The translations under genes and the position numbers were made by a program. Of a stretch of 64,000 bases of DNA, positions 361-43,990 are shown one piece after another. Under the pieces are notes generated by a model. The model was given only the letters and a program-made list of their open reading frames with translations, was not told the DNA's origin and did not search any database. This DNA comes from Roseinatronobacter alkalisoli (GTDB lineage Bacteria > Pseudomonadota > Alphaproteobacteria > Rhodobacterales > Rhodobacteraceae), in the NCBI RefSeq assembly GCF_028745735.1, contig NZ_JAQZSM010000003.1, positions 62,001-126,000 of the forward strand, in the 5' to 3' direction. Numbering within the stretch: the stretch's first letter is position 1; each line of letters starts with the position of its first letter.

Positions 361-534
361 GCGTCACCGGTGGGCCGGGGTCTGCCGGTCGCACATTGAA
401 GAAGTTCACTTTATGCAAGCGTCACAACTCCGACCTTCAAAGCGTGAGTCAACGCCAGCCAAACCGGCAGGCCGCGGGACGGCCCACCGGTGGCGCGGCG
501 GCCTGCGGCCTTGACTCCGCGCCTTTGGCAATTT
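361..534 (-). repeat. structured intergenic repeat, copy A
   Basis: A ~175-bp element that also occurs at 10487-10672 (copy B) and, decayed, at 43808-43990 (copy C). It holds nested inverted repeats: 366-376 pairs with 481-491 (11 bp perfect), TGCCGGT 383-389 with 463-469, TTGAAG 396-401 with 435-440, and AGTT 403-406 with 426-429. In the minus-strand sense it follows the stop of the gene ending at 567 by about 30 bp. Copy B keeps the stems with different bases, which points to selection on structure. The rest of 186-566 shows nothing I can support. Confidence 0.8.
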
Positions 535-10434: not shown

Positions 10435-10486
10435 GATATGCGCGTAAGGCGCTGTAATTCATATAAACGCTTGAATCCGCTGCAGA

Positions 10487-10672
10487 GCCACGCCAGCGGC
10501 GGGCCGGGGTCTGCCGGTCCCACCTATGAGAAGTTCACTTTATGCAGGCGGCATAATCCTGAGTTCATAGGCTTGGCATGACGCCAGCGAAACCGGCAGG
10601 CCGCGGGACCGCCCGCCGATGGCGCGGCGGCCTGTCGGCCTTGACTCCGCGCCTTCGGAAATTCCCCAAGGA
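10487..10672 (-). repeat. structured intergenic repeat, copy B
   Basis: Closely similar to copy A (361-534). Stems: CGGCGGGC 10497-10504 with 10611-10618; CTGCCGGT 10511-10518 with 10592-10599; CCTATGA 10523-10529 with TCATAGG 10565-10571; TTATGC 10540-10545 with GCATAA 10551-10556. Relative to copy A, both the outer stem and the CCTATGA stem differ on both arms yet still pair. In the minus-strand sense the element begins about 9 bp after the stop of the threonine aldolase gene (10681). Confidence 0.8.
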
Positions 10673-43807: not shown

Positions 43808-43990
43808 GAACTCTCAAAAACGCGTTGACCAAGGGCGCAGCCCGCCACGCCATAGGTCCGGCTGTCCCGCGGCCTGCCGATTTCGCTGATGTAGGGCCAA
43901 GCCTGTGATGTCGGCGTTATGCTGCTTGGACAAAATGGACCCGCGCCCCACACCGGACCGGCAAACCCCGGCCCACCGCTGGCGCGAAGT
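43808..43990 (+). repeat. structured intergenic repeat, copy C (decayed)
   Basis: The reverse-oriented counterpart of copies A and B. GTCCCGCGGCCTGCCG (43864-43879) and ACCGGCAAACCCCGGCCCAC (from 43957) match the two main arms. GCCAAGCCTGTGAT and the TTATGC block lie between them. TGCCG/CGGCA still pair; outer and inner stems are partly lost. It begins about 34 bp after the fliG stop, in the same relative orientation as copies A and B to their genes. The remaining 43991-44159 shows nothing I can support. Confidence 0.65.

Follow-up and report, generated by a model that had tools for sequence, protein, structure and literature searches.

Three segments of the 64,000-nucleotide stretch of Roseinatronobacter alkalisoli DNA analysed here (the window) are copies of one repeat, as judged by matches to the covariance model R1. 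This repeat can probably be explained as a non-autonomous mobile intergenic element of ERIC/REP-like type, with a bistable single-strand fold and moved in trans by a putative mobiliser. At the level of sequence comparison, the repeat family, its covariation, its strand asymmetry, its placement among genes and its polymorphism between genomes are all directly apparent; mobilisation in trans through the folded strand, and tolerance of the copies at 3′ ends, are what these observations would suggest.

The core element is ~171 nt long, and its parts lie in the order A-B-C-loop-C′-B′-A′-inner hairpin-A2. The three copies that a first-pass annotation had picked out from the letters alone, including the diverged third copy, were all recovered as R1 matches. 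The features of the window copies are as follows.

356–526, + strand: copy A, core element (R1 limits; 195.8 bits, E 4e-43; MFE z −4.01); genus-specific outer arms may extend beyond
358–364, + strand: copy A arm A, 5′ strand of P1, of the same sequence type as the 3′-terminal arm A2 (alignment A5, columns 10–16; triple covariation in alignment A7)
368–378, + strand: copy A arm B, 5′ strand of P2 (A5 alignment and covariation)
379–388, + strand: copy A arm C, 5′ strand of P3 (A5 alignment and covariation)
407–414, + strand: copy A conserved apical-loop motif CACTTTAT (loop consensus of A5 and A7)
464–473, + strand: copy A arm C′, 3′ strand of P3 (A5 alignment and covariation)
479–489, + strand: copy A arm B′, 3′ strand of P2 (A5 alignment and covariation)
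493–499, + strand: copy A arm A′, 3′ strand of P1 and also 5′ strand of the outer P4 helix (shared, mutually exclusive; A7 covariation)
500–516, + strand: copy A inner hairpin of P4 with the internal loop CTTGA(C/T)T (P4 covariation; IS110 insertion point in other, plasmid-borne copies)
517–522, + strand: copy A arm A2, 3′ strand of the outer P4 helix (A/A′/A2 and P4 covariation)
10485–10656, + strand: copy B, core element (175.9 bits); the orthologous site lacks the element in genomes G020 and G012
43818–43990, − strand: copy C, diverged core element (114 bits, E 5e-24)

Copies A and B each folded better than 200 of 200 shuffles (z −4.01 and −3.05, respectively); the fold of copy C was unremarkable (z −0.45, with 66 of 200 shuffles equally good). 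Outside the core, inspection by eye of the flanks of copies in the R. alkalisoli genome revealed that genus copies often have further imperfect inverted arms (GGCCTGAA..., ...TTCAGGCC).

The repeat is abundant in its own genome (G000; 4.84 Mb, 130 contigs). Here, blastn gave 42 matches from 40 scored candidates, and R1, which like alignment A3 was built from the 30 best blastn copies of this one genome, gave 144 matches at E ≤ 0.01 among 150 candidates scored. Three of the 144 are antisense duplicates and 16 are 90 nt or shorter, leaving ~140 places or more. The congener G020 yielded 121 matches, four of them antisense duplicates, among the same number of candidates, corresponding to more than 100 copies; given that 150 candidates were scored in each genome, both counts are lower bounds. 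The first-pass proposal had been made conditional on the presence of more copies in the genome, and they are present. A copy is also carried by plasmid NZ_CP121115.1 of Roseinatronobacter sp. S2. In addition to the own genome, 14 of 23 sampled genomes of the same genus gave a blastn match, compared with none of 16 from other families. A pattern describing the 3′ hairpin occurs in at least 118 stretches of named genomes, and the 80 pattern matches listed include Roseovarius, Sulfitobacter, Salipiger, Pseudaestuariivita, Lentibacter, Shimia, Ruegeria, Roseivivax and others, genera that we take to be Rhodobacterales (the five least certain names were checked). Plasmids of Pseudosulfitobacter, Salipiger and Roseinatronobacter also bear the element. 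The cross-genus model R2 found a match in 38 of 61 genomes of the order including the own genome (37 of the 60 others), representing 25 of 38 genera, with from 1 to at least 44 copies per positive genome. Across the class, 3 of 58 genomes matched, namely the own genome, one other member of the family and one borderline case (8e-5) among the 56 more distant alphaproteobacteria; at most 46–49 candidates per genome were scored in these two surveys. Copy number is very uneven, from none to more than 100 per genome in some soda-lake bacteria, and, as sampled, the family is restricted to the Rhodobacteraceae in the broad (GTDB) sense.

Rfam gave no match at the gathering threshold in the window or in eight loci of several subfamilies, and a search of copy A with E up to 10 gave far sub-threshold matches only, in line with the earlier remark that no named Rfam family corresponds to the repeat. 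Carriage by phages or viruses finds no support, with no phage record matching copy A and no viral contig containing a 21-base core. The repeat is not described in the available portions of the literature searched (including PMC3733652, PMC2267715, PMC2229807, PMC10969869, PMC2864571, PMC8632094, PMC1525189 and PMC11109978), a search with most subscription papers outside its scope. The repeat is therefore new to the Rfam copy and literature searched.

P1 (A-A′), P2 (B-B′) and P3 (C-C′) together form one long hairpin, in which a bulge separates the C′ strand from the B′ strand and the ~75–80-nt loop holds CACTTTAT and CCAAAT. P1–P3 and the 3′ hairpin P4 covary across genera, as assessed with shuffle and slide controls. 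In A5 (61 sequences, comprising 56 of the 61 pattern matches that passed an arm-complementarity cut and five others), 94.7% of cells were paired versus 83.6% after shuffling, a percentage inflated by the cut itself, which 61 of the 76 pattern matches with upstream room had passed. Changes on both sides were found in 172 cells, compared with 42.6 after shuffling and at most 31 in slid controls. Variation in P1 and P4 is not judgeable on A5 because the search pattern fixes P4 and arm A′. A7 (63 sequences, comprising 60 of the 63 best R2 matches, without L284, L314 and L315, and three others) was chosen independently of the P4 pattern, with R2 itself encoding structure. Here, 218 cells had changed on both sides (65.8 shuffled, slid maximum 39), and when P4 was swapped in for P1 the count was 239 (70.3 shuffled, slid maximum 51). 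Given that subfamilies follow clades, these counts overstate the independent events, which are a handful, not dozens.

Within the genus, both-sided change was observed in 3 of 28 pairs (30 copies). The compensatory changes that the first-pass annotation had reported in the outer stems of two copies are real, being few inside the genus and strong across genera, and that two-copy argument was thin but right in direction. Its inner-stem example (CCTATGA/TCATAGG against TTGAAG/CTTCAA) fails, as pairing with the own partner was no better than with partners from swapped copies among 83 genus copies (z −0.85). A lack of significant covariation had been named as grounds for dismissal; covariation proved to be high against both shuffles and slid controls.

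The non-Watson-Crick cells in the stems are strongly asymmetric with respect to strand. On the sense strand, A5 holds 93 G.U cells versus 17 A.C cells, and P2 and P3 of A7 hold 76 versus 7, or 37 versus 7 once two wobble-rich pairs are removed. Among the 83 genus copies, changes away from G-C consensus pairs gave 75 G.U versus 29 A.C, while unpaired columns lean in the opposite direction (C to T in 143 of 2357, G to A in 213 of 2380; p 7e-6 if copies are independent). Given that G.U lies far above A.C, one strand appears to be selected as a folded single strand. Such asymmetry would not be expected from selection on duplex DNA alone, but would be expected for RNA or single-stranded DNA of this polarity. 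The excess fits RNA and single-stranded DNA equally, and an RNA role is possible.

The 3′ side of the element can be paired in two ways. A′ is common to P1 and the outer P4 helix, such that these helices are mutually exclusive, and both are conserved. A, A′ and A2 change together across subfamilies, reading CCGC/GCGG/CCGC in 15 sequences, CCGT/ACGG/CCGT in 12, CCGG/CCGG/CCGG in 4 (and in 4 more without A2) and CCCC/GGGG/ACCC in 4, the remainder being represented by one sequence each. In the 58 of 63 A7 rows that are gap-free in all three arms, A and A2 were identical at 195 of 232 letters (shuffled mean 155, maximum 169), A-A′ pairing was found at 208 of 232 (shuffled maximum 186) and A′-A2 pairing at 218 of 232 (shuffled maximum 196). 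Arms B and C′ are alike, and therefore B-C and C′-B′ are able to pair locally; such pairing was observed at 294 of 315 positions for C′-B′ (shuffled maximum 265) and 286 of 315 for B-C (shuffled maximum 270). When the 3′ part was folded alone, the C′-B′ hairpin appeared in 8 of 8 sequences. The 5′ alternative is the weaker claim because, with the 5′ part folded alone, the B-C hairpin was the best fold in just 2 of 8. The long hairpin was the lower-energy form in 8 of 8 (−86.9 versus −61.2 kcal/mol for copy A). A tentative and more far-reaching interpretation is that the element is a bistable single-strand device, in which A′ pairs with A or A2 while C′ and B′ choose long-range or local partners. 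The switch of fold would then be the functional step either in a new route of single-strand transposition or recombination, with mobilisation in trans that does not involve a Y1 transposase, or in a transcription-coupled RNA switch on a mobile repeat.

The placement of copies was assessed against genes called by a purpose-written codon-usage script. Of the 65 full copies in the G000 stretches, 40 have convergent neighbouring genes, 24 have co-directional ones (9 sense, 15 antisense) and 1 has divergent ones. The corresponding figures for 18 full copies in G020 are 11, 5 (1 sense, 4 antisense) and 1, with 1 at an edge. For 83 copies in named genomes they are 50, 21 (13 sense, 8 antisense) and 3, with 8 at edges and 1 within a called gene. 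These counts draw on 79 of 136 R1 rows for G000, 20 of 41 for G020 (antisense duplicates and three weak rows dropped) and 83 of 118 for named genomes (cut, antisense-duplicate and weak rows dropped), and some of the G000 stretches were chosen for holding copies. The counts by region use contiguous sequence alone (most of contig C54 and 360 kb of G020); in these two stretches, a full copy occupies 20 of 71 intergenic regions between convergent genes, 11 of 242 between co-directional genes and 1 of 91 between divergent genes. Random placement relative to genes, which would have spoken against the earlier proposal, is thus not what is seen, and a position at the 3′ ends of genes is supported. REP families likewise favour convergent and co-directional regions, according to the part of the source available (PMC3733652).

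Copies A, B and C end 24, 40 and 43 nt from a stop codon by R1 limits, and the gene on the same strand as the element stops 146–170 nt before it. The first-pass annotation had placed all three copies 9–34 bp after a stop codon and in the same orientation to the preceding gene. Proximity to a stop codon is borne out, but the orientation claim is trivial, because all three copies lie between convergent genes and are downstream of a stop either way. Pooled co-directional copies, 23 sense and 27 antisense, do not support a fixed sense orientation to genes, and a one-orientation cis-acting signal for the upstream transcript is therefore unlikely. Selection on RNA structure in 3′ ends, as originally suggested, accordingly survives as selection on single-strand structure (covariation, G.U excess), but not as a 3′-end signal in fixed orientation to the upstream gene.

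These data also bear on a host-functional RNA, in which transcripts reading in from either convergent gene would acquire a stable 3′ end, meet a site of termination or processing that works in both directions, or give rise to a small RNA, with the two folds acting like a terminator/antiterminator pair. The sense-strand G.U excess, the conserved loop motif, the strong preference for 3′ ends and the near absence from divergent regions all agree with such a role. So does one orthologous site (L093:13067–13148 in G020), where a perfect short inverted repeat resembling the stem of an intrinsic terminator stands in place of a G000 copy (L080:8228). Nevertheless, co-directional copies have no sense bias, no U-run follows P4 and no promoter-like flank is conserved across genera (both judged by eye), and copy number ranges from none to more than 100 per genome. 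Furthermore, another intrinsic-terminator-like site was present in 15 of 49 convergent regions with the element and 32 of 73 without it, a difference that is suggestive but not clear. On balance, a host-functional RNA is considered rather unlikely.

The distribution of copies along chromosomes has two further features. The G020 chromosome has a 378-kb gap without full copies at 878–1256 kb (P 0.00075 versus uniform placement), away from dnaA (690 kb). Across five chromosomes (G020, G021, G048, G054 and G058), the sense strand runs against the replication fork in 126 of 209 copies (p 0.004, with the terminus assumed to lie opposite dnaA). These tests used 105 full chromosomal copies of G020 and, for the other genomes, all listed main-chromosome matches, a few of them partial. 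Both features would suit a chromosome-structure site, that is, a cruciform or protein-binding hairpin for nucleoid or replication proteins, like the roles proposed for REP and BIME sequences. The fork bias is weak, however, and absent in G054 (17 of 33) and G058 (3 of 9); the sign of local GC skew had no association with copy orientation in the G000 and G020 stretches, and many relatives have few or no copies. Such a function is very improbable as an explanation of the repeat.

Comparison of related genomes points to mobility. Of 14 G000 copies with both flanks aligned in G020, two of them weak or short, five had a counterpart copy and nine corresponded to gaps without an R1 match, which lends support to one possibility raised at first pass, a mobilised non-coding repeat. 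Eight of the nine element-free gaps in G020 are 16–139 nt long, the ninth (at the site of copy C) being 318 nt. At the site of copy B, the gap is 338 nt versus 128 nt in G020, and 321 versus 109 in G012. Short forms of ~48–81 nt lack the inner part; at one orthologous site G000 has a short form and G020 a full copy, and the one short form compared looks as though the sequence between the direct repeats B and C′ had been deleted. On Pseudosulfitobacter plasmids, three sites (L142 versus L263, L288 versus L332 and L287 versus L333) have a counterpart of about equal length with flanks of high identity; at each, the elements of the two plasmids belong to different subfamilies and lie in opposite orientation. 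In the L288/L332 pair, half of the partner element is retained in either allele, a pattern that alternate loss of halves from an inverted pair would produce. As candidates for clean empty plasmid sites, L143 and L144 were rejected, having no near counterpart with both flanks and otherwise unchanged, as was L142, whose element-free relatives also lack the neighbouring genes.

The P4 loop is itself interrupted by an IS110-family element, at the same point (around CTTG/ATTCC) in all three plasmid copies of that IS found, which represent two subfamilies:

L289:1400–2729, Pseudosulfitobacter plasmid: IS110-family insertion
L330:251–1401, Pseudosulfitobacter plasmid: IS110-family insertion
L331:251–1401, Pseudosulfitobacter plasmid: IS110-family insertion

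The conserved P4 loop therefore seems to be a target of this IS110-family element. IS110 elements within REPs are already known from the part of the literature available (PMC1525189).

No mobiliser came out of the domain and half-element searches. The Y1 transposase domain PF01797 had no match in G000; it occurs in 7 of 61 genomes of the order, where by inspection its presence does not track element copy number. Mobilisation by a RAYT/Y1 enzyme in this genome is accordingly unsupported, as is a link across the order. Searches with the 5′ and 3′ halves (nhmmer) revealed no gene-bearing version between two halves in the G000, G020 and G012 stretches. The sole lone half in that search was a 3′ half-element at L105:3584–3642, outside any full or short copy.

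An ordinary double-stranded MITE, whose long TIRs would be bound as duplex by a DDE transposase and whose arm complementarity would be kept merely since both ends bind the same protein, would share several of these properties, namely the long, TIR-like inverted arms, the short deleted forms and presence or absence between genomes. Such an element does not predict the asymmetry of G.U over A.C, nor a one-sided P4 hairpin with its own covariation, the A/A′/A2 triplet or the bulge that separates C′ from B′. The GC content of full copies (62–72%) is a further point against it. No TSD or exact ends could be read at the sites compared, which were too diverged (15–20% for G000/G020) or had the segment replaced, and no gene-bearing version occurred in the stretches searched. 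On balance, assignment to the DDE-type MITEs is improbable.

The preferred explanation, a mobile repeat moved in trans, can be described by the following minimal model. One strand can fold either as the long hairpin (A-A′, B-B′, C-C′) or, on its 3′ side, as tandem local hairpins (C′-B′, A′-A2). A putative trans-acting recombinase or transposase would recognise the folded single strand, whether single-stranded DNA or RNA, and then move the element. Copies would persist mainly between convergent genes, presumably because no promoter or operon is broken there, and may in that position also serve as 3′-end hairpins for transcripts from either side. As such, this family-wide repeat joins the short list of ERIC/REP-like elements without a known mobiliser, and its conserved alternative pairing is a concrete clue to how such elements move or act. 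Having more than 100 similar GC-rich palindromes in one genome can have consequences for assembly, annotation and gene expression in Rhodobacterales; in addition, an IS110-family element uses the repeat as an insertion target.

Among known systems, ERIC sequences (IRU, RU-1) are 127 bp long, occur in enterobacteria and vibrios, and are reported in the accessible parts of the sources to have a 7-bp TIR with TA ends and a TSD, and to exert effects at gene 3′ ends (PMC2229807, PMC2267715, PMC10969869). Like ERIC as described there, the present element is a family-restricted intergenic palindrome of similar size with a long stem-loop and tens to hundreds of copies, its mobility being deduced without a known transposase. 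It is set apart by description in being 171 nt long, GC-rich and found in Rhodobacteraceae, and in having an extra 3′ hairpin and the A/A′/A2 triplet. It departs from the ~127-bp enterobacterial/vibrio consensus in length and in host, the 80 pattern matches listed and those of the order survey being from Rhodobacterales, with one borderline match beyond. A dispersed long palindrome with presence or absence between related genomes, as in ERIC, is what was found.

REP sequences of the GTAG and CGTC super-families, and the BIMEs, are 20–40 bp long and bear a tag, GTAG or CGTC, with Y1 (RAYT) transposases accompanying the GTAG type, according to the portions of the sources available (PMC3733652, PMC1525189). 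On the same partial descriptions, high copy number, intergenic and mostly convergent or co-directional placement and insertion by IS110-family elements are common to both. By contrast, the present repeat is 171 nt long with a multi-helix fold, no such tag is seen by eye, and PF01797 is without a match in G000.

The attC sites are recombination sites in which one DNA strand, of a set polarity, acts in folded form; attC-like structured DNA (OTH-22-1) is described in the part of the source at hand (PMC8632094). The likeness to the present element depends on the mobility proposed above. Unlike attC, the element has no RYYYAAC end visible by eye, and its copies are dispersed. The HRC-8-4 motif is a structured intergenic motif of the same order, the Rhodobacterales; it is set apart by its description, in the available part of the source, as a stem resembling a terminator, followed by a U-run and situated mainly between the cco operons, with no dispersed repeat described (PMC8632094).

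In summary, the repeat works like the ERIC and REP elements, being a dispersed, palindromic and polymorphic intergenic repeat without a gene of its own. It is assigned to neither family, since it differs from both in size and taxon and from the REPs also in tag and transposase. What marks it out is a strand-specific fold, a 3′ hairpin that covaries in its own right and an alternative pairing that is conserved.
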